A stretch of 64,000 bases of DNA, from assembly GCA_020081605.1 (NCBI GenBank), contig JAHREC010000045.1, positions 558,001 to 622,000 on the forward strand. The letters are read 5' to 3'. Source of the DNA: Albifimbria verrucaria. Taxonomy: Eukaryota > Ascomycota > Sordariomycetes > Hypocreales > Stachybotryaceae. Made by a program: the position numbers and the translations under genes. The notes beneath the pieces were generated by a model, which worked only from the letters and a program-made list of their open reading frames with translations, was not told where the DNA came from and made no database searches. Shown in pieces: positions 7,918 through 22,363 of the stretch (its first letter is position 1; each line of letters begins with the position of its first letter).

Positions 7918-7944
7918 TCACCGAGTCAAGGTGTCACCGAGTCA
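7918..7944 (+). promoter_or_regulatory. Two copies of TCACCGAGTCA in the GCV2 promoter
   Basis: Exact 11-mers at 7918-7928 and 7934-7944, in direct orientation, 16 bp start to start, about 260-330 bp upstream of the possible GCV2 start codons. The reverse complement TGACTCGGTGA is the same element found in the GCV3 and SHMT/GCV1 promoters. It contains TGACTC, the core recognised by yeast Bas1 and Gcn4. Role as a regulator site is inferred from recurrence and position. Confidence 0.75.
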
Positions 7945-8206
7945 GACCCATAATAAAGTGGGTTGCTGCGTCCAAGCCGGATGGATGCAACGGGCTCTGG
8001 GATCGGCTGGAGAGCCAATGGCTCCTCAAATGGCTTCGAGTCGGAGCAGAGTATTGAGTCGTTATCGGCTTGTTACTGGGGTCTTACTTAGACACGGTCC
8101 CTCTCACAAGTCGCAGTCGATCTTCCTTTCTTATTCCATTAGACTCTTTGTTTCCCTTCATTCGTAACTCAATTGAGTGGCTTGATTTGGTTCTTTTCAC
8201 AGCCCT

Positions 8207-9422
8207 TTGTTTTCACATTCCAAGAGGCACGCAACAATCAGTTGCAATGCTTGCTGCTGTGCGCTCAGCCCGCGTCGCCCGGCGACAATGTCGCCAAGCC
8301 GTTCTCAGCACCATCGTAGAACGTGCTCCTGCAGTCTGCAGACTCGCACAGCCTTGTTCACACAGACTCGTCGACTTCAATCTCAAAGTGGCTTCACCAA
8401 CAGCCAATCTTCAGTACAGATCCGTGACCATGAGAGGTTCTCACGCCGTCACAACGGCAGCGAGCCGGAAGAGCATGTAGAAATGCTCAAGGCACTTGTT
8501 CCGCCAGTGTCCTCCATGGAGGAGTTCATCCACCAGACCATTCCATCACAGGTGCGCCGGAAGGACACCGGCTTGCAACTCGTCGAGCAGTGGGACGCGA
8601 CTGGCGAGCCCACGCCTATCCCCGCGGAAGGACACCCTGAGCATGTTATCAAGGAGCGTATGAGCAAACTCGCTGCGCTCAATGTACAGAACGAGTCTTT
8701 CATCGGAAGTGGCTACTACGGAACCTTGGTGCCTGCAGTGATCCAGAGGAATATCCTGGAGAACCCTGCATGGTACACAAGCTACACACCTTACCAGGCG
8801 GAAATTAGCCAGGGCCGCCTGGAATCGCTCCTGAACTTCCAAACGCTCGTCACCGAGCTCACGGGTCTGGATATCGCAAATGCGTCTGTTTTGGACGAAT
8901 CCACTGCCGCGGCAGAGGCCATGACCATGGCATGGGCGAATGCGCCAGCCAAAGCTGCCAAGAAGACTTTCGTTGTGTCAGAGAACTGCCACCCCCAAAC
9001 ATTGGCTGTTCTCGAGTCGCGAGCTCAAGGATTCGGTATCGATATCGTGATTGGCGATGTCTTGAAGGACAACAGTGCGTTGATCCGGGAGAACCAGGGC
9101 ACGCTTATTGGCACGCTCATCCAATATCCTGATACCCATGGTGGTGTGTTTGACTACCAGCAGCTCTCAGATCTCGTGCATGAGAAAAAGGGCCTGGTTT
9201 GCGTTGCCACTGATCTTCTAGCCCTGACGAGACTCAAGGCGCCTGGTGAGTTTGGTGCAGACATTGCTATCGGCAGTGCCCAGCGACTCGGTGTTCCTCT
9301 TGGTTATGGTGGTCCTCATGCAGGCTTCTTTGCTTGTACCGACAAGTACAAGCGAAAGATCCCTGGCCGTATCGTCGGTGTTTCGAAAGATCGTCTGGAT
9401 AACCGGGCGCTACGCCTTGCTC

Positions 9423-9459
<37 letters not shown>

Positions 9460-11401
9460 GACCAGCAACATCTGCACAGCCCAGGCCCTCCTAGCCAACA
9501 TGAGCGCCTTCTACGCCATCTACCATGGTCCCGAGGGCTTGAAAGCCATTGCTGAAGACATCGCAGCAAAGACACGACTGGCTCAACAACTGATCCTGGA
9601 GGAGGGCGTCTTCAAATCCTATACCTCGGGTCTTCGAGAGGATGGCCTTGTCTTGTTCGACACTGTTACTTTGCAGGGCAGCGCAGAGGCGGTGTTCAAG
9701 GCACACGAGAGGGCTGCTGTTGCAAAGATCAACCTGCGTCACATTTCTGACGACAAAGTCGGCTTTTCCCTGCATGAAGGCATCGAGTTGGAGACTCTTG
9801 GCCGTCTTGTGAAATGTTTCGGTGTCTCTGAAGAGAAATTCTCATCTGCCCTCGAGACTGGAAGCCAGTCACTAGAGACCAGCGTCCCTGCCAACCTCCA
9901 GCGTCAGTCGTCTTACCTTCAGCAACCTGTCTTCAACAAGTACCACACCGAGACTGAACTGCTGCGCTACATTTACCACCTCGGTGCCAAGGATCTATCT
10001 CTTGTGCATTCCATGATTCCGCTGGGGTCCTGCACTATGAAGCTCAACGCGACAACTGAGATGGTACCCGTATCGCTGCCCGGCTTTTCTAATATCCATC
10101 CTTTCGCCCCTGTGGAACAAACACCTGGATACCAGACTCTTATTGAAACCGTCAGCGAAAACCTGGCCACTGTTACAGGCATGCATAGCATTAGCTTGCA
10201 GCCCAACTCTGGAGCACAAGGTGAATTTGCTGGCCTCCGTGTCATCCAGCGATACCACGCTGAGAAGGAGGGGAACAACAAGCGGAACATCTGTCTTATC
10301 CCTGTGTCTGCGCACGGAACTAACCCTGCCAGTGCAGCTATGGCAGGCATGAAGGTTGTGTCTATCAAGTGTGATACCAAGACTGGTAACCTCGATATTG
10401 AGGACCTCAAAGCCAAGTGCGCTAAGCATGCGGACGAGTTGGCGGCTATCATGATCACCTATCCTAGCACGTTCGGTGTATTTGAACCTGAGGTCAAGGA
10501 GGTCTGCCGCATTGTGCACGAGCACGGCGGACAGGTTTACATGGACGGCGCCAACTTGAATGCTCAGATTGGCCTTTGCAGCCCTGGAGATATCGGTGCT
10601 GATGTATGCCACTTGAACCTGCACAAGACATTCTGCATTCCTCATGGTGGTGGTGGTCCCGGCGTTGGACCTATTGGTGTGAAGGAGCACTTGACACCCC
10701 ATCTCCCTAGCCACCCGATCGTCGACCCTCAGCACGGAGGCGTAGTACGCCAGAGCACAGCCGTGGCCCCCATCAGTGCTGCCCCTTGGGGAAGCGCTTC
10801 CATCTTGCCCATTACGCATGCTTACATGCAGCTCATGGGTGGTGGTGGTTTGACGAAGCAGACAGGTGTTGCTCTGCTGAACGCCAACTACATCATGTCG
10901 CGCCTACTCCCACACTACAAGGTCGTCTACACCAACTCCAACGGCCGCTGTGCCCACGAGTTCATTCTGGATGCACGTCCCTTCAAGGAGACAGCAGGCA
11001 TCGAAGCTGTCGATATCGCCAAGCGTCTGCAGGATTACGGCTTCCACGCCCCCACAATGAGCTGGCCCGTTTCGGGAACTCTCATGATCGAACCCACAGA
11101 GTCTGAGTCTCGTGCAGAGCTTGATCGATTCTGCGACGCCTTCATCCAGATTCGAAAGGAGATTGCGGATATTGAGTCAGGAAAGGTGCCTAGGACGAAC
11201 AACGTGCTTAAGAACGCGCCTCACCCACAGCAAGATCTGCTCCGAGCAGACTGGGACCGCCCATACACTCGAGAAGAGGCTGCATACCCGTTGGGATGGC
11301 TCAGAGAGAAGAAGTTTTGGCCATCAGTGGCGAGAGTTGATGATGCATTTGGTGACAGCAATCTGTTCTGTACTTGCCCACCTGTGGAGGATAGCGAGTA
11401 G
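8207..11401 (+). CDS. GCV2: Glycine dehydrogenase (decarboxylating), P-protein of the glycine cleavage system
   Basis: PLP enzyme that decarboxylates glycine and passes the aminomethyl group to the lipoyl arm of H-protein in the mitochondrial matrix. The 1064-codon frame is uninterrupted, close to the usual 1000-1060 residues for eukaryotic P-proteins. The PLP lysine is Lys807 in NLHKTFCIPHGGGGPG, followed by the glycine-rich loop; DIANASVLDESTAAAEAM marks the N-terminal half. The N-terminus is uncertain. The ATG at 8207 gives a basic, acid-free leader. The ATG at 8247 in another frame (MLAAVRSARVARRQCRQAVL) is a better mitochondrial presequence and would need a one-base shift before about 8450. 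The gene converges tail to tail on GCV3 (269 bp between stops) and has two TCACCGAGTCA elements upstream. Confidence 0.97.
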
Positions 11402-11670
11402 CGTTGCACACTGGGAACTGGAATTTGGAGATGAGGAAAATAGCATTTCGCGTTTTAGATCATTTTGCTAGCAAAACTTGGAGTTACAGCCTTTATATTC
11501 CCTCGTCACTCAGTTCAACCTGAGCTCGAACCGTGGGCCATCTATTGATTCAACGAATGGGCAAAGCATGGAGTTTGGAAGAAAAAGATGAAATCATTTT
11601 AAGAGATAGACAAATAACATGAAAAATTTGAATAACTTGTGCTGAATTGAAGATCATATGGGAATTACAT

Positions 11671-12308
11671 TTAGTGGTCATTTGCAGCAAACTCGGCATA
11701 TGCCGTCTCGTCCATCAGCCCTTCCATGTTCACCTCGGCCGTTGGTTCTACCTCAATCAACCAGCCTTCTCCTTCGGGGTCGTTGCTCAAATCTGCGGGC
11801 TTCTCGACGATTGACTCGTTGGTCGCAACCACATTTCCTGTAATGGGCGAAACGAGGTCCGAAGCGGACTTGACAGATTCCACTGAGCCAAATGCCTCGC
11901 CAGAGGTGACTTCCTCGCCCACTTCAGGGACCTCAACAAAGACAATGTCGCCAAGAGCTTCCGCGGCGTGATTACTGATGCCTATCTTGTCTGAATGGTC
12001 GTTTAGAAAGGTCTTCAAGTTTAGATCGTAGGGGTTTTCACTTACAGGTCTTGCCATCTGCGCTCACATCAATCCATTCGTGGCTTTCTGTGTATCGCTT
12101 CTCAAGGCCTATGTTGGTAAGATTTAGATCTAAAGAGGAGTGGGTTGGGAGACGAACGCCAGAGTGATTGTGAGAAAGATCTTGACGATGGTGCAGCCCA
12201 TTTTGAGCTGGCTGCGATAGAAGGTCTCACAGCGCGAGCGGTTGTGTTGGAGATTGCCTTGGGGCAGACCCGAGCAACATTCTTGATAAATAACGACGCC
12301 ATTTTCAT
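11671..12308 (-). CDS. GCV3: Glycine cleavage system H-protein (lipoyl carrier), mitochondrial
   Basis: Carries the aminomethyl intermediate between P-, T- and L-proteins on a lipoylated lysine. Three exons (12308-12158, 12108-12046, 11990-11671) separated by 49-bp and 55-bp introns give 177 residues without a frame break. The leader MASLFIKNVARVCPKAIS is typical of matrix import. Then come RYTESHEWIDV, GISNHAAEALGDIVFVEVPE, and the lipoyl-attachment region SVESVKSASDLVSPI with the acceptor lysine in ESVKS. ATG codons at 12308 and 12302 are both usable. The first intron has a weak donor (GTTCGT), but only this join restores the conserved RYTESHEW start of the mature domain. Five GACTC(G/A)GTGA elements lie 170-290 bp upstream. 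Confidence 0.95.
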
Positions 12309-12477
12309 GTCAATAATGCAAGAGGGTAGAGACGTTTAGGTGATTAGATCAAGTTGAGGGACTTGACTGAATATGTCACACACTTTTTCCAGCAAGGTAG
12401 TTCCAACGCACTTTGTCCAGGCAGACAATCGATAGCTAAACGGTTACCCTGATAACCCGGAACCGGCGCGCGCTTCT

Positions 12478-12598
12478 AGACTCGGTGATCGAACGATCCC
12501 CACAGACTCAGTGAACCCCCACATGATAGACTCAGTGAAACCCCACCTGGTCCCTTGAAGACTCGGTGACAATTTTCGTGGACCCACAGACTCGGTGA
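12478..12598 (-). promoter_or_regulatory. Five-copy GACTC(G/A)GTGA array in the GCV3 promoter
   Basis: AGACTCGGTGA occurs at 12478-12488, 12559-12569 and 12588-12598. The variant AGACTCAGTGA occurs at 12504-12514 and 12528-12538. All are in the same orientation, reading TCACCGAGTCT (or TCACTGAGTCT) on the GCV3 sense strand, with 24-31 bp between starts. The conserved repeats sit in otherwise non-repetitive DNA, which suggests selection on the element rather than a simple tandem repeat. The bound factor is not known; the linked Bas1-like Myb is a candidate. Confidence 0.75.
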
Positions 12599-12938
12599 CA
12601 CTGGGGTCCATGCGGAAAGATAAGGCAAGGCAAGGATTGCACTCCAACAGGAACCGGCAAAGGAACAGTCGGGGCCAGGCGTTATGACAAGACGGCCGTT
12701 TGGTTTGCAGACTAGATTCGGGGTTCGTAAATTTATTCTTCAAGGTGGTTGGAGTTGGATCGAGTAGCAGCTAACACTACAAAGTCACTACAATTGCATA
12801 CTATTGTACATGCGAAGACGCTTGACATGATTGAAGATGAATTGAACCTCTACGGTATTGAATCAATGAACTACTAATGGAAAGCTTGCGAAAGAAATAA
12901 TATTATGCCCGCTCTATGTTACGTTACGTTCAATGTGA
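12599..12938. other. Distal GCV3 promoter / SHMT 3' flank
   Basis: Non-coding spacer between the five-copy element array and the serine hydroxymethyltransferase stop codon. No further copy of the GACTCGGTGA element and no gene were seen. Confidence 0.6.
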
Positions 12939-14637
12939 TCAAGATTCAATCCAAGGCTCGTCAAAACCACCAACCCATTCCTCAACTTCCTTCTTTAGCG
13001 CTCCAATCTCGGCGACGGCTGATCCGTCTCCCAGATGCTCTAGGAAAGCCTTTTGTGTAGAAGGGTTCTTGACGCCCTTGGCTGCGGCAGCTTCCTTGGC
13101 TTCATTAGCCACCTTGATCGTGATGTTGACACCGCGATGCACAATATCTGCCACCCGCTTGAAGTCTTCTGCTGTGAAACCCCTTGTAGTCATTGCCGGC
13201 GTGCCCAATCGCAGACCACCAGGTCGGAGGGCAGATTTATCCCCAGGAACTGTGTTCTTGTTGCTGGCAATGCCACAGAGCTCGAGTACTCGCTCAACAC
13301 GGGCGCCGTCTACGCCTTTCGGCTTGAGATCTACAAGGACGAGGTGGTTATCCGTGCCGCCGGAGACCAGCTTGTGGCCGTGTGTATCAGAGAGCTGGCT
13401 AGCAAGAGCCTTTGCATTCTTGAGGACAGTTGCCTGATATTGTTTGAACTGTGGGCTTTGGGCTTGTCGCAAGGCGACGGCAAGCGCTGTGATGGTGTGG
13501 TTGTGAGGGCCGCCTTGGTGTCCAGGGAACACAGAGGCGTTGATAGGACCTTCAAGATCGTACTTGATCTCCTCGCCCTTCTTGTTGACGCTTCTTACAC
13601 CCTTGCGGAAGAAGATCATGGCACCACGAGGGCCACGGAGGGATTTGTGTGTTGTAGTAGTTACGACATCGGCGTACTCGAATGGTGAAGGAATGACGCC
13701 AGCTGCCACGAGACCAGAAATATGGGCCATATCCGCAAGAAGGTAGGCTCCCACCTCATCCGCAATAGAGCGCATGCGAGGGTAGTCAATTAGACGGGAG
13801 TAAGCAGAAGTTCCAGCGATGATGATCTTGGGTCGGTAGAGGAGCGCACTCTCCCTCAGTTTGTCGTAGTCAATGAGACCAGTAGTCTCATCGAGGCGGT
13901 AAGGAAAGTCTCGAAATACTTCGAGACCATAGAAATCTTCTTGGTCGGGAGCTGATATCCGTGAGAGAGATGACCGCCATGGGGAAGGTCAAGACCCATG
14001 ATGCGATCGTGTGGTTGGAGAAGGGCAGAGTAAGCATAGAGGTTGGCAGGAGAGCCAGAGAGAGCTACTGCTTGTGAGCATGCGACCACGTATTCTCAAA
14101 AGTAAAATAACTGACATTGGACATTGACACCCCATCGATCATCGGTAAGGTTGAATGCCTGCAGAGCACGTTGTTGGCAAAGCGTTTCCGCTTCGTCAAT
14201 GTGCTCGTTGCCGCCGTAGTAACGCGCGCCAGGGTAGCCTTCCGAATACTTGTTCTGCATCACACTGCCAAGCGCATTGAGCACGGCTTTCGACGTGAAG
14301 TTTTCTGAAGGAATGAGATTGATGAAGTGGCGTTGCCGTTTCTCCTCCTGTAACCTCTGTTCAGTGGCTAGTTGTATCACTCGGAAGCAGCTTACTTACA
14401 CGTTTGAGGATGTTGTATACTTCAGGGTCATTTTCCGAAAGTGTCGAGCCTAGAAGCTGTTCTGAGGTTATTACACAGCTCACTCAAGAAGCGATTATTA
14501 CTCACATTGGAGTGTTCTTGGGACAGGGATGAGTAGAGTCTCATCAATGGCCGCTGTGGTGCGACAATTGGACGAAAGCCTCTGCAGGCATGGTTGAGCG
14601 ACCGCGACCGGACCATGGCTAGAATGTAATTGCGCAA
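12939..14637 (-). CDS. SHM1: Serine hydroxymethyltransferase, mitochondrial type
   Basis: PLP enzyme interconverting serine plus THF with glycine plus 5,10-methylene-THF; it supplies or uses the products of the glycine cleavage system. Four exons (14637-14506, 14456-14400, 14356-14116, 14064-12939) give about 518 residues. The first exon ([14 protein letters not shown], later RPLMRLYSS) looks like a mitochondrial presequence, so I favour the mitochondrial isozyme. Conserved blocks are [50 protein letters not shown] and the PLP-lysine site [17 protein letters not shown]. The frame slips at 13903-13904: TTTCCTT reads correctly as TTTCCCTT ([14 protein letters not shown]), so one C seems missing. 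It shares a divergent promoter of about 516 bp with GCV1, containing TGACTCGGTGA copies. Confidence 0.95.
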
Positions 14638-14884
14638 AGACGAAGCTCGGAAACCACTGTTCAGTGCTATTGACTTTGCGTCAATGTTTTGGGACAGAAG
14701 TACGTGATGCGCTTATAGAGCCCAGCCCAGCGTAATGGAAATATGTGGAGAGGAGGTCCAACACCAATCTGACCGCCAACGGCGATTGATACTTGTACAA
14801 AAATTGATCAATTAAATAACATTCCCATGCTTGTTGGGGCAAAAAGCCGGTTCCAGTGTCTCGGCTAAGCTGTGCTTATCGCCT

Positions 14885-14978
14885 TGACTCGGTGACTCGG
14901 TGCCGCGTGACTCGGTGACGATCTGCGCATGCAGCCCAGTTTTAGCGATGGAGGGCCGGAGCGTTAGTGCACCGAGTC
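14885..14978. promoter_or_regulatory. TGACTCGGTGA elements in the divergent SHMT-GCV1 promoter
   Basis: TGACTCGGTGA at 14885-14895, an overlapping variant TGACTCGGTGC at 14893-14903, and TGACTCGGTGA at 14908-14918. On the opposite strand, GCACCGAGTC (GACTCGGTGC) is at 14969-14978. The first three read TCACCGAGTCA (or GCACCGAGTCA) on the SHMT sense strand and lie 248-281 bp from its ATG. The fourth has that orientation relative to GCV1 and lies about 175 bp from it. The same element recurs in the GCV2 and GCV3 promoters. Confidence 0.75.
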
Positions 14979-15153: not shown

Positions 15154-16451
15154 ATGAGTCAAACGTCAATTCGGGCATCCCTGCCCTTCAGGCAAGCTGT
15201 TGCTACCCTCAAGGCTCGACCGTCGACGAGCGTCCTGGCAGGTTTCACCCAACAGCGACAAGCGTCCAATGCTGCAGCTGAGGATCTGAAAAAGACACCG
15301 CTCTACGATTTCCACCTCTCCAATGGCGCCAAACTCGTTCCCTTCGCTGGCTACCACATGCCCATCAGCTACTCATCACTCTCTCATGCCCAATCACACC
15401 ACTTCACCCGCGATAATGCTTCTCTGTTTGACGTGAGCCACATGGTTCAACACATTTTCCAAGGTCCCGCGGCGGCTGCGTTTCTGGAAACAATCACTCC
15501 GTCGGGGTTCAAGGATCAGGGTGTCATGCAGGGCAAATTAACGACTTTCCTATGGAGCGGAACTGGTGGGATTGTGGACGATTCCATTGTGACCCGGATC
15601 GGCGAAGACGCGTACCATGTTGTCACGAATGGAGCATGCTTGGAAAAGGACACCAAGTACTTTGATGAGGAGCTCGGCAAATTCGGTGGTAACATTCAAT
15701 GGTCAAAACTAGATGGCTCTGGCCTGCTGGCTCTGCAAGGTCCAAAGAGTGCAGAAATTTTGGCGGAATTGGTCGACGCGGATCTGAAGGCGCTGTATTT
15801 TGGATCGTCAACATTGGCGACGCTCAAGGTCAAGGACGGCAAGACAGTACCCGTGCTGATTAGCCGTGGAGGCTACACTGGCGAGGACGGCTTTGAACTT
15901 TCCTTCAATACTGCCATGGGCTCTGCTGGCGAGAATGCCGCTCTCGCAGCAGATGCACTTCTTACAACCGCAGGCTCAAGCCGTCTTCAGCTCGCCGGCC
16001 TTGGCGCTCGTGATTCTCTACGCTTGGAGGCTGGCATGTGTCTATACGGGCATGATCTGGACGACACCACTACGCCGGTCGAAGCGGCTCTTAGCTGGGT
16101 CATTCCAAAAGAGCGCCGCGAAAAGGCGGGTTCCACGGGGCCGAGGTCATCCTCTCCCAGCTCAAGCCGAAGAGCAAGGGTGGTTCAGGTGTGGAACGTC
16201 GACGAGTTGGAATCATCGTGGACGGTGCCCCAGCGCGTGAGGGTGCGCAAATTGTAAAGGACGGCGAGGTCGTCGGAACAGTGACAAGTGGCTCGCCGAG
16301 TCCAACTCTGGGAAAGAACATCGCCATGGGCTATGTGAAGGATGGTCTACACAAGTCTGGGACTGAACTAGAGGTCGTGGTGCGTGGCAAGAGCCGGACA
16401 GGAACCGTATCGAAGATGCCCTTTGTCCCGACCAAGTACTGGAAGGCATAG
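15154..16451 (+). CDS. GCV1: Aminomethyltransferase, T-protein of the glycine cleavage system (one frame break)
   Basis: Transfers the methylene carbon from aminomethyl-H-protein to THF, releasing ammonia, in the mitochondrial matrix. A basic presequence (MSQTSIRASLPFRQAVATLK) is followed by LYDFHLSNGAKLVPFAGYHM, SLFDVSHM and GGYTGEDGFELS, all characteristic of GcvT. The C-terminal OB-like half continues in the next frame from about 16132 (GAPAREGAQIVKDGEVVG, then NIAMGYVKDGLHKSGTE) to the stop at 16449-16451. The switch occurs in GGGTTCCAC at 16131-16132, where one extra T restores AGFHGAEVILSQ. Corrected length is about 432 residues, near the fungal norm. The initiator is in good context and is the first ATG of the frame. 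It is divergent from SHMT. Confidence 0.95.
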
Positions 16452-16958: not shown

Positions 16959-18242
16959 CTACATTTGGCGGGAGAGCTGTTGCAGGGGGAAGCTTTGGGT
17001 ATCATGATGGGGTTCTTCAGGTATGTTTGATAACTGTTGCTCAGACCGCGATGTCATCTCCGCAGACAGCTCCAAGGCTCGAAAATCGACCGAGTTTGTG
17101 AAGGAAGGGTCGTGGTGCGGCTGGTTGTGGTCCTCGACTGAAGTTTGCAGTGCTGAAGTCGATGCCTGAGCCGGTAATCGGTTTATGATGGGAATTGGAG
17201 GAACGTTTGGCGCGGAAGAAGTCTGGTCCTCCCAAGATGATTCCATGTCCCAATTGATCAATGGAGGGGCCAGTGGCAGATTTGCGTCTGGCACATTCTC
17301 CATATCCTGGACAGCGTCATAGGGGACAGCATGAGCCGCGTCTATGGTCAGGCCAGCGTTCCAGTCACTATCCAGCGACATGGAATGAGGATAGTCCAGC
17401 TGGCTGGCAACAGTAGTTACATCGGGAATATCGACATTGACGGCAATGGACTCGGGCAAGGCCAAGATTGCACCTGGCTCATCGCTGGGACGGGAGACAG
17501 CAGGGGACATTGAATTCTCGGCCGCATCGTACTCTGAAGCGGACTGCATATTATCGGGCGACGTTTGCTGTTCAGCGGCCGACCTGGAAGCCATGCATTG
17601 CTTAGATAGGTTGCGCCAGCGGTTTCGGCAAGTCAGCGGTGGCCGGCCAGGCAGTCTTGCGGCGACGGCAGACCACCTGTGGCCCAGGTCACTGACACTG
17701 TCGCGCAAGATGCGATCCTCGTCCGGAGTCCATCCGGAGAGGCGATTCTTGGCCAATGGCCCGAGAATGTCAACATAACGCTTGGAGCATTGATCGTCTT
17801 TCCTGCCGGGGATGAGATCGGCGATCTGCTTCCATGCCGGGCCGAGGCGCGCATAGGCCTCGAGCAATATGCGATCCTCATCCTCGGTCCACCGGCCCTT
17901 TCTAAGGGACGGATCCAACGAATGGAACCACCGTTTGCGACAGTCCTAGGATCCCAGTCAGCTTCATTGCATGCCACGTGGGAGTGGCTGTGTGAGGCGC
18001 GTCGGCGAATCGACCTGCTTGACACCCAAATTGGCTCACCTTGGCAGTGCGGCCTGGGATGCCTTGGGCAATCTCAGTCCATCTCCCTCAGATCCTCTGG
18101 CGTGGCCATACTGCGCAACGCGGCTCCTGAGAGACTGGTCCTCCCATGACGTCCAGTTGCGACGGGCCCTCCGAGCAACATTTGCTGTGCCGCCTTCAGT
18201 TGATGCAGGCGGTGTAGCGTTGGGTGAGTGCTCCGTCGACAT
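16959..18242 (-). CDS. Three-repeat Myb DNA-binding protein, Bas1-like (one frame break)
   Basis: Predicted sequence-specific transcription factor. Exon 1 (18242-18040) and exon 2 (17945-16959) flank a 94-bp intron and give about 396 residues. Three tandem Myb repeats are visible: R1 NWTSWEDQSLRSRVAQYG...WTEIAQGIPGRTAKDCRKRW, R2 KGRWTEDEDRILLEAY...WKQIADLIPGRKDDQCSKRY, R3 SGWTPDEDRILRDSV...WSAVAARLPGRPPLTCRNRW. Each has the spaced aromatic residues of the Myb fold. The rest is acidic, Ser/Pro-rich and probably activating or interacting. Within R1 the frame slips at 18085-18087 (CCC on the plus strand); one added base gives a normal repeat. Yeast Bas1 has the same three-repeat layout and controls GCV and SHM genes through TGACTC. 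Orthology is inferred from architecture and linkage, not alignment. Confidence 0.85.
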
Positions 18243-20058: not shown

Positions 20059-20896
20059 ATCGTGCACCAAAGCGTATTGATCCAGCGTCACTAGCTCGAA
20101 TCACTGAAGAATAATTTGGTTGAACGGCTATAATTCGAACTAATCTTTATGGATTCTTTCATTATCCTAGCTCGCATCAAAAAGTAATATCTAGACGAAA
20201 TGCCACAGTTTAATATTGGTAGCAATCCTAACAAACTGCAAAACTAGTGTTTGTAGTCTTAAAGCTGAAAGGGAAGGAGTTTGAATAGACGTTATTAAAG
20301 TGAACATAACTTAGGCATATGCTACTCTGGGCAGCCTGAGGTTGGTTTATTTGTGAGGTCGGAGAACAGAGATGGGGAAGCTGTGTTTAATTTCAGCCAT
20401 CGCATATTAGGTCTTACCTTGCTGTCTCCCTTTGGGTGTCAAGATATCTCTATACCTACCTGACCTTATGGAAGAGGGAGGCCGATACATACTGGCGAGA
20501 AGAATCCGGTTCGGATTGCGGGGAAGAGAAAAGTGCCTTCCTAATTGAGAGAATGATGGTCTCTTATCCGGTTGCTCCCCAAGGCCGGCTTGGATGATCC
20601 ACCGTCAAGTGATGCAGGGTGAGAATGACCTTGATACCACTACCTGAAAATCTGTTACTTCCTACGTGACATAAGATCATATCAACTACAAGATCATCAG
20701 CAAGTATTTAGCAGGACCCACGATTATCAATGCAATGTAACCACCCGCATACGTGGCTGGTAGCCCCTTGCATGCAACATGGATTTATGATAAGTAGGAG
20801 AACGATTCGCCAGAAATCTATGCTTGTTCTCATTTCAGTCACCACTTCCCTTCATCCTTCGATAATCCTGTCCTCTGTGTAAGGATATTCTTCAAA
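20059..20896. other. Intergenic, no gene recognised
   Basis: About 0.8 kb, AT-rich at 20090-20260, then the promoter of the FAD oxidoreductase. No element shared with the glycine cluster was found. Confidence 0.6.
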
Positions 20897-22363
20897 ATGT
20901 GGTCATCTTTGGTCAATATGATTACTTTTAGCTGCCTCACTTCAAAAATAAGGGCAAACGCTATATCTCATGAGTTTCAACAGACCATTAACGATGACCG
21001 TGTCCAAAATACCCTCTTCGGCTTCCCTCACCCTAACCCCACTGTGTCGTATTGGCAAGACCCTCCCCATCGTATCGCTAACCATCGTACTACTCCTGAC
21101 CTGCCTACGTCACAAGTCTTTGACTATATTATTGTTGGTTCTGGGGTGACTGGGGCTTCAGTGGCATTTAAACTCTTATTACGCGAACCCAAGCTGGCTA
21201 TCCTAATGATCGAGGCCCGTACTGCTGCGTCAGGAGCAACAGGGCGCAATGGTGGTCATTGTCGTCCTGGGTCCTGGAAAAGCATCAAAGACTGGATAGC
21301 AGCCCACGGGGAGGATGAAGGGCTCAAGTTAGGCATGATGGAACAGGATAGCATCAACGACATGGCCGAGTTTGTTCGGAGATATAACGTTTCTAGTGAC
21401 TGGAGAGACGTTGAAAGTGCCGATCTATATTGGACCAAAGATGCCTTCGAAAATGCGGCCAAGGTGGTGGAGTTCCAACGCGAATTGGAGCAGCGCAGAC
21501 CAAACGATGTCCCGAGGAACACAAGAACGGTATATGCTGGCCAGGCAGCAAGGGACTATTGGGGATGGCCAGAGATCTTAGGAGCTGTCACCTTCCAATC
21601 GCATACGCATAACCCCTATTTAACGGTTTGCGCGCTGCTCGAGCAGAGCCTTGCAAAGGGGCTTAACTTGCAGACGAATACATTGGCAATGAATCTGAGT
21701 AAAGTTCCACGTAAATCAGCTCATGCAGCCAAGTGGGAAGTTCAGACAAACCGAGGAATTGTGAGGGAAAACAAGTTGTCCTCGCTACGAATGGCTACAC
21801 GAACGCGCTGCACCCTGGTTTTGCAAGGACAAGGTTCCTCGTTCCGTCTAGAAGTCAAGCTTCCGCAGTGCATCCTGAGAAGGACACATCAAACAACCCC
21901 GTGTTTCTCCGAAGCGCTTCGTACCCCGATCTGCACAGCGGTAACAATTATATTGTCGTTCGTGGTCCGGGAGTCCGCAGGAAGGGGACGTTGTTTACGG
22001 AGGGGCACAAAGTTCTCACCGACGAGGGAAAAAACATTACGGATGACTCTGTGGTCAATAAGGACATTGCCTCACACTTGCAAGGTGTTGGACGCGTTGT
22101 CTATGGGCACAAAAACTGGGGCGAGTCAACGAGACTTATCAGGATTGGACCGGCATCACCTGTGAAACGCCTGATGGACTCCCAGTAGTTGGTGGTGTGC
22201 CAGGTGAAGAAGGTCTCTGGGCGTCAGTATGCATGAACGGACACGGCATGGCTTGGGGTATAGGAGTGCAGAAGCGCTTGTTCAGATGATGACACAGGGC
22301 AAAGCACCGGAATGGTTTCCAAAACCATTCAGAGCTGAACGAGCTTGGGCACGTCAACAGTGA
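20897..22363 (+). CDS. FAD-dependent oxidoreductase, DAO family (three frame breaks)
   Basis: The ADP-binding motif VFDYIIVGSGVTGASVA starts near residue 75 and is followed by ARTAASGATGRNGGHCRPG, a layout typical of D-amino-acid oxidase/glycine oxidase/sarcosine oxidase-like flavoproteins. The frame moves three times, near 21765, 22123 and 22265. Each move is repaired by one added base, reading through GKQVVLATNGYTNALHPGF, then VNETYQDWTGITCETPDG and finally MMTQGKAPEWFPKPFRAERA to the stop at 22361-22363, about 489 residues. The WTGI...DGLPVVG block is the conserved C-terminal FAD contact. Substrate is probably a primary or secondary amine. An amine oxidase near a glycine-cleavage cluster is suggestive, but the glycine element is absent from its promoter. 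Confidence 0.85.

Follow-up and report, generated by a model that had tools for sequence, protein, structure and literature searches.

What reads a short DNA element that recurs in all three promoter regions of a gene cluster for glycine cleavage? The question is raised by a 64,000-nucleotide stretch of the Albifimbria verrucaria genome (assembly GCA_020081605.1, contig JAHREC010000045.1, positions 558,001 to 622,000; hereafter the window), in which GCV2, GCV3, serine hydroxymethyltransferase (SHMT) and GCV1 lie within about 10 kb together with the gene of a BAS1-type Myb transcription factor, the candidate reader discussed below. An earlier note on this sequence had listed seven exact copies of the 10-mer GACTCGGTGA and four one-base variants, and all eleven were found where it had placed them. 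Two lie upstream of GCV2, five upstream of GCV3, and four in the divergent SHMT/GCV1 region, and all share the 9-bp word GACTCRGTG. These eleven sites fall within 2279 promoter bases, for which the mean over 1000 dinucleotide shuffles was 0.031 sites and the maximum 1, while the rest of the window (61,721 bases) holds a single exact 9-mer, the twelfth, at 9285 within the GCV2 coding sequence. The figure of 0.12 exact 10-mers expected per 64 kb, given in the same note, is right for equal base composition. Its statement that the element occurs only upstream of the cluster genes was too strict, as four more one-mismatch matches occur elsewhere in the window (5284, 9285, 16293, and 35433), bringing the matches to GACTCGGTGA with at most one mismatch to 15, against 3.39 expected and a largest value of 8 in 100 shuffles. 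We regard the eleven sites as real and almost certainly regulatory.

The letters of the sites define what has to be read. Among the promoter sites (coding site 9285 excluded), the base preceding GACTCRGTG is T in five, A in five, and G in one, and the base following it is A in nine and C in two. The common core is GACTCRGTG, with the leading T outside it; the claim of a shared element is borne out at nine base pairs, but TGACTCGGTGA overstates the core. The GACTC that characterizes Bas1 cis-elements is present in all eleven sites, and the full Bas1 hexamer TGACTC is found only in the five with a leading T. Each GACTC of the two shorter regions lies within a full site (5/5 and 4/4), as do two of the five in the GCV2 region. 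The sites lie at −304 to −328 from the likely GCV2 start codon (8247), at −171 to −289 from that of GCV3 (12308), and at −270 to −362 and −176 to −268 from those of SHMT (14616) and GCV1 (15154), respectively. Another word, GGAACCGGC, is also shared; it is present at two places upstream of GCV3 (12459 and 12650), once in the SHMT/GCV1 promoter (14846), and once elsewhere in the window (49639); the GCV2 promoter lacks it.

Because TGACTC may also serve as the half-site of a bZIP protein, a factor of the Gcn4/CpcA or BIP1 kind could bind these sites instead of a Myb. Five of the eleven sites read TGACTCG, and BIP1 of Magnaporthe, a bZIP protein of a fellow Sordariomycete, is described as binding TGACTC with a possible CATGACTCG extension, the mutation of two such sites abolishing appressorium-specific promoter activity (PMC10833574). 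However, the T of the half-site is missing from six of the eleven sites, including all five of GCV3, the full TGACTCA is absent from the three promoters, and RGTG, which a bZIP half-site would not need, is kept in every site. We therefore consider a bZIP reader improbable. The Gcn4-type palindrome TGASTCA was rejected as the shared element on the same absence of TGACTCA, TGAGTCA being the same site on the other strand. In yeast, GCV genes are controlled by a glycine regulatory region with the core CTTCTT; this element is present twice upstream of GCV2 and absent from the other two promoters, so the cluster differs from the yeast arrangement and CTTCTT is not the shared element here.

A genome-wide scan, which the earlier note had proposed, separated single copies from close groups. 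In the 48.4 Mb assembly, with the reversed motif as control, the exact 10-mer matched 94 times, about 92 being expected for equal bases, and the reversed control matched 130 times; a count so near chance means that single copies are background. Direct pairs of the form GACTCRGTG-N0-30-GACTCRGTG behaved differently: only 11 occur in the genome, seven of them in the glycine cluster and the other four at C15:5512615-5512986. For the whole genome, about 0.17 such pairs would be expected by arithmetic for equal bases, and the reversed control gave none. Inverted close pairs, in the one of two inverted arrangements that was searched, numbered zero in the genome. Of the 87 exact 10-mers outside the window, 48 were checked over about 250 bases on each side, and one was accompanied by a second 9-mer, 99 bases away; its neighborhood contains LEA-like and GPR1/FUN34-like genes, judged by eye only. 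Within the arrangements searched, copies packed this closely were seen in no other promoter of the genome.

The set at C15 also bears on whether the sites might be a passive, functionless repeat, tandem or mobile, that has spread from promoter to promoter. The C15 set is a tandem array with nine exact sites in 4.5 kb, lying inside a 799-codon open frame rich in serine and threonine; the array is very probably coding, and the motif word within it, as we read it, is a chance occurrence and a useful negative control for motif counts. A passive origin would fit the flanking letters CCCACAGACTC that some of the five GCV3 copies have in common, as well as the one-base overlap of the SHMT/GCV1 sites at 14886 and 14894. 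Against it, the flanks differ among the three promoters, both strands are used, copies inside a promoter are unevenly spaced (their starts 8 to 61 bases apart), and elsewhere close direct pairs were found only in this coding repeat. Such an origin is very improbable.

The earlier note had called the element a pathway-specific binding site. Of the possible readings, a transcription-factor site shared by the promoters is much the best, but "pathway" proved too wide. The genome carries a second, dispersed set of the same genes: a second GCV2 (C10:2810824, 49-65% identical by stretch), a second GCV1 (C10:2124679, 66% identical over the main stretch), a GCV3 (C41:4059213), and two SHMT genes (C6:1549375 and C8:2792474). 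Together with MTHFD, an MTD-like gene, two LPD-like genes, and one GCV_T-like gene, these formed ten comparison genes, and none had an exact GACTCRGTG in the 1.2 kb that precede its conserved match or in-frame start, a span that may be partly exon or intron where the first exon is undefined. Over the ten whole loci (6.0-8.5 kb each), the sole exact site (L059:478) lies about 1.5 kb past the 3′ end of the C8 SHMT match. The purine genes ADE4 and ADE17 likewise had no exact site in seven loci, the assignments of ADE4 and LPD being exon matches below the family cut-off; one one-mismatch site each was present in the two 5′-most loci. A pathway-wide element was rejected, and GACTCRGTG is specific to the physical cluster rather than pathway-wide, because no exact copy stands upstream of the ten other genes or around ADE4 and ADE17.

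The Myb gene, which adjoins GCV1 and starts at about 18242, went unmentioned in the earlier note. Bas1 of Saccharomyces cerevisiae acts directly on GCV1-3, and repeats 2 and 3 of the window Myb are homologous to those of BAS1. A search for Myb relatives gave 173 at E ≤ 0.001, and at least 16 of the 120 among the matches listed bear the BAS1 name. By sequence match, the genome yielded no other close relative of BAS1, the next best Myb-like match being far weaker (E 1.3e-8). The window Myb shares 50-58% identity over 125 residues with five yeast relatives, two of them (P0184 and P0223) bearing the name Bas1. Two third-helix segments, LTCRNRWR and DDQCSKRY, are identical in 14 and 8, respectively, of the 17 relatives compared, and both are identical in P0184, P0223, and P0186. 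Repeat 1 is present as well, split over two frames here and continuous in P0122, P0123, and P0125. Among solved structures, the c-Myb protein of entry 1h88 is the closest in sequence. Along DNA, c-Myb places repeat 3 on the 5′ part of its core and repeat 1 towards the 3′ side. A search for the Myb in viral_contigs and genome_contigs returned no locus. Two side observations concern the relatives: a histidine-rich stretch (HHYHHYHHH...) lies at or near the C-terminus of P0121, P0125, P0126, P0127, and P0131, and P0126 is filed under a Bathyarchaeota archaeon, most likely as a fungal contaminant of a metagenome bin.

We consider the best single mechanism to be binding of GACTCRGTG by the resident BAS1-type Myb, which would thereby co-regulate GCV1, GCV2, GCV3, and SHMT, and we give this a probability of about 0.66. 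It could work as follows: (i) the candidate Myb, made from the end of the cluster, would bind the sites and switch the four genes as one glycine-to-one-carbon module; (ii) GACTC, known as the Bas1 core in yeast, would be read by its repeats 2 and 3, and repeat 1 may read or sit on the RGTG extension, by analogy with c-Myb; (iii) several sites per promoter could allow cooperative activation; and (iv) the signal may be glycine, one-carbon, or purine status. In a wider form, the locus would be a self-contained glycine-to-one-carbon cluster of moulds, with its own BAS1-type Myb and a private 9-bp operator, standing beside a dispersed, operator-free housekeeping set, so that an ancient global regulator would have been turned into a local, cluster-specific switch whose repeat 1 reads RGTG; for this the odds seem only slightly better than even.

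Several observations weigh against the Myb as reader. The full TGACTC is limited to five of the eleven sites, and RGTG is not part of the published Bas1 core (TGACTC), as given in the available part of the source (PMC3866871). The 958 bases upstream of the Myb gene contain neither an exact nor a one-mismatch site, and its reading frame is broken in the assembly. One-mismatch sites are found upstream of three of the ten comparison genes (two at an SHMT, one at the second GCV3, and one at an LPD-like gene), and ADE4 and ADE17, which lack exact sites, belong to the classical Bas1 target pathway. Some of these points could instead suggest that a different factor binds the sites and that the Myb is a neighbor of the cluster for unrelated reasons or acts on it indirectly, since the known Bas1 core is shorter than these 9 bp and the Myb upstream region is free of sites. 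However, the failure to find another close BAS1 relative in the genome, the linkage of the Myb to GCV genes in two named species (Stachybotrys elegans and Lomentospora), and the Bas1 family core GACTC in all eleven sites make a different factor unlikely, although it is the least unlikely of the alternatives to a resident Myb reader.

Related systems have been described in yeasts and moulds. According to the available part of the source, the Bas1 motif is TGACTC and that of Gcn4 is TGASTCA (PMC3866871). AICAR is described as stimulating the yeast Bas1-Pho2 pair (PMC3901205), and Candida albicans Bas1 and Grf10 as acting on one-carbon and purine genes (PMC5541157). S. cerevisiae Bas1 (with Bas2/Pho2) and C. 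albicans Bas1/Grf10 are alike to the present case in Myb family, GACTC core, and one-carbon targets (PMC3866871, PMC5541157). In contrast to these yeasts, the site here is extended to GACTCRGTG, close groups are confined to the cluster that encodes the candidate factor, and the two purine genes have no exact site around them. Aspergillus nidulans has two BAS1-type Mybs, BasR (AN7174) and AN8377, which, like the window Myb, belong to a filamentous fungus; the function of such proteins in filamentous fungi was called completely unknown before BasR (PMC6234034). BasR, a putative Bas1 ortholog without the Bas2-interaction (BIRD) domain, activates the secondary-metabolite ors cluster and differs in this target, and no glycine-cleavage role or binding site is given for it in the available part of that report (PMC6234034). 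M. oryzae BIP1 resembles the present case in a pair of TGACTCG sites in the divergent promoter of a gene cluster, but it is a bZIP factor of infection genes with a TGACTC core (PMC10833574). No paper on a fungal glycine-cleavage gene cluster or a link of it to Bas1 was found among the papers listed from an open-access library. The exact 10-mer itself turns up in 35 papers there, and the 20 titles listed deal with unrelated topics.

The locus offers a matched pair, a candidate factor and a candidate site present in eleven copies, and the second gene set, which lacks exact sites, serves as an internal control. It thus becomes directly testable how a fungal Myb with three repeats recognizes DNA and how one-carbon control was rewired between yeast and mould. 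If the resident Myb does read the sites, a glycine module with its own regulator would be added to the primary-metabolism clusters of fungi. The arrangement matches such a cluster in that functionally linked genes stand side by side and that the block, as followed through GCV2, GCV1, and Myb, is conserved.

Conservation was followed in other species through GCV2, GCV1, and Myb rather than GCV3 or SHMT. In Lomentospora prolificans the locus tags are jhhlp_006966 (GCV2), 006968 (GCV1), and 006969 (Myb). In Stachybotrys elegans, all three genes are on contigs of one size (1493002), a strong but indirect sign of linkage. GCV2 and GCV1 of Paramyrothecium foliicola are also on contigs of one size (2184222); this species has another GCV1 on a contig of different size. 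Linkage is indicated, again indirectly by equal size, for GCV2 and GCV1 on one further contig (94663) and for GCV2 and Myb on another (28289). In Fusarium floridanum, Dactylonectria, Mariannaea, and Cosmosporella, GCV2 and GCV1 are on contigs of different size, as are GCV2 and Myb in F. zealandicum. The window P-protein is 89% identical to those of S. elegans and P. foliicola. A GCV2 tree was built from the window, part of the genome's second copy, and 29 proteins out of the 120 listed; in it, Lomentospora and Cephalotrichum join the Stachybotryaceae and five further proteins in one 11-row clade (100/99). GCV1 is 71% identical to that of Lomentospora and 64-73% identical to the listed Trichoderma and Fusarium proteins. 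That the cluster moved horizontally between the Microascales and the Stachybotryaceae was considered as one possible reading; the GCV2 tree joins the two groups, but the GCV1 identities do not agree with it.

Table 1. Coordinates of the sites and genes of the glycine cluster in the window.
Feature	Position	Strand	Remarks
Pair of GACTCGGTG sites, their starts 16 bases apart	7919..7943	-	GCV2 promoter
GCV2, glycine decarboxylase P-protein	8247..11401	+	Pfam GDC-P 1.2e-169; start from P0001 alignment
GCV3, H-protein, at least 2 exons	11671..12308	-	Pfam GCV_H; 5′ exon read
Five GACTCRGTG sites (12479, 12505, 12529, 12560, 12589)	12479..12597	+	GCV3 promoter
Serine hydroxymethyltransferase, several exons	12939..14616	-	Pfam SHMT
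Three GACTCGGTG sites (14886, 14894, 14909)	14886..14917	+	Divergent SHMT/GCV1 promoter
Fourth, inverted GACTCGGTG site	14970..14978	-	SHMT/GCV1 promoter
GCV1, T-protein	15154..16451	+	Pfam GCV_T; relative P0241
BAS1-type Myb transcription factor gene	16959..18242	-	Pfam Myb_DNA-binding 2.7e-28; intron about 17946-18039

The N-terminus of GCV3 is likely a mitochondrial presequence, and the cluster SHMT is likely mitochondrial by its own N-terminus, both judged by eye. Beyond the Myb gene lies a gene for a DAO-type FAD oxidoreductase (20798-22165), with no exact site nearby. Four places in the cluster show apparent breaks of the reading frame: GCV2 shifts near 8330 relative to a 99% identical relative, GCV1 breaks near 16120-16140 although an intact relative of 98-99% identity exists (P0241), and the Myb gene is affected in its first repeat and near the C-terminus. 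Decay of the cluster into pseudogenes is possible but less likely, as relatives that are 94-100% identical do not have the changes seen in GCV2, in GCV1, and at the Myb C-terminus. These relatives (P0001, P0121, and P0241, with identity counted over the pieces that matched) show no break at three of the four places, and S. elegans P0123 is continuous at the fourth. Because the frame changes are absent from the predicted proteins of close relatives or of S. elegans, the breaks are probably assembly errors.

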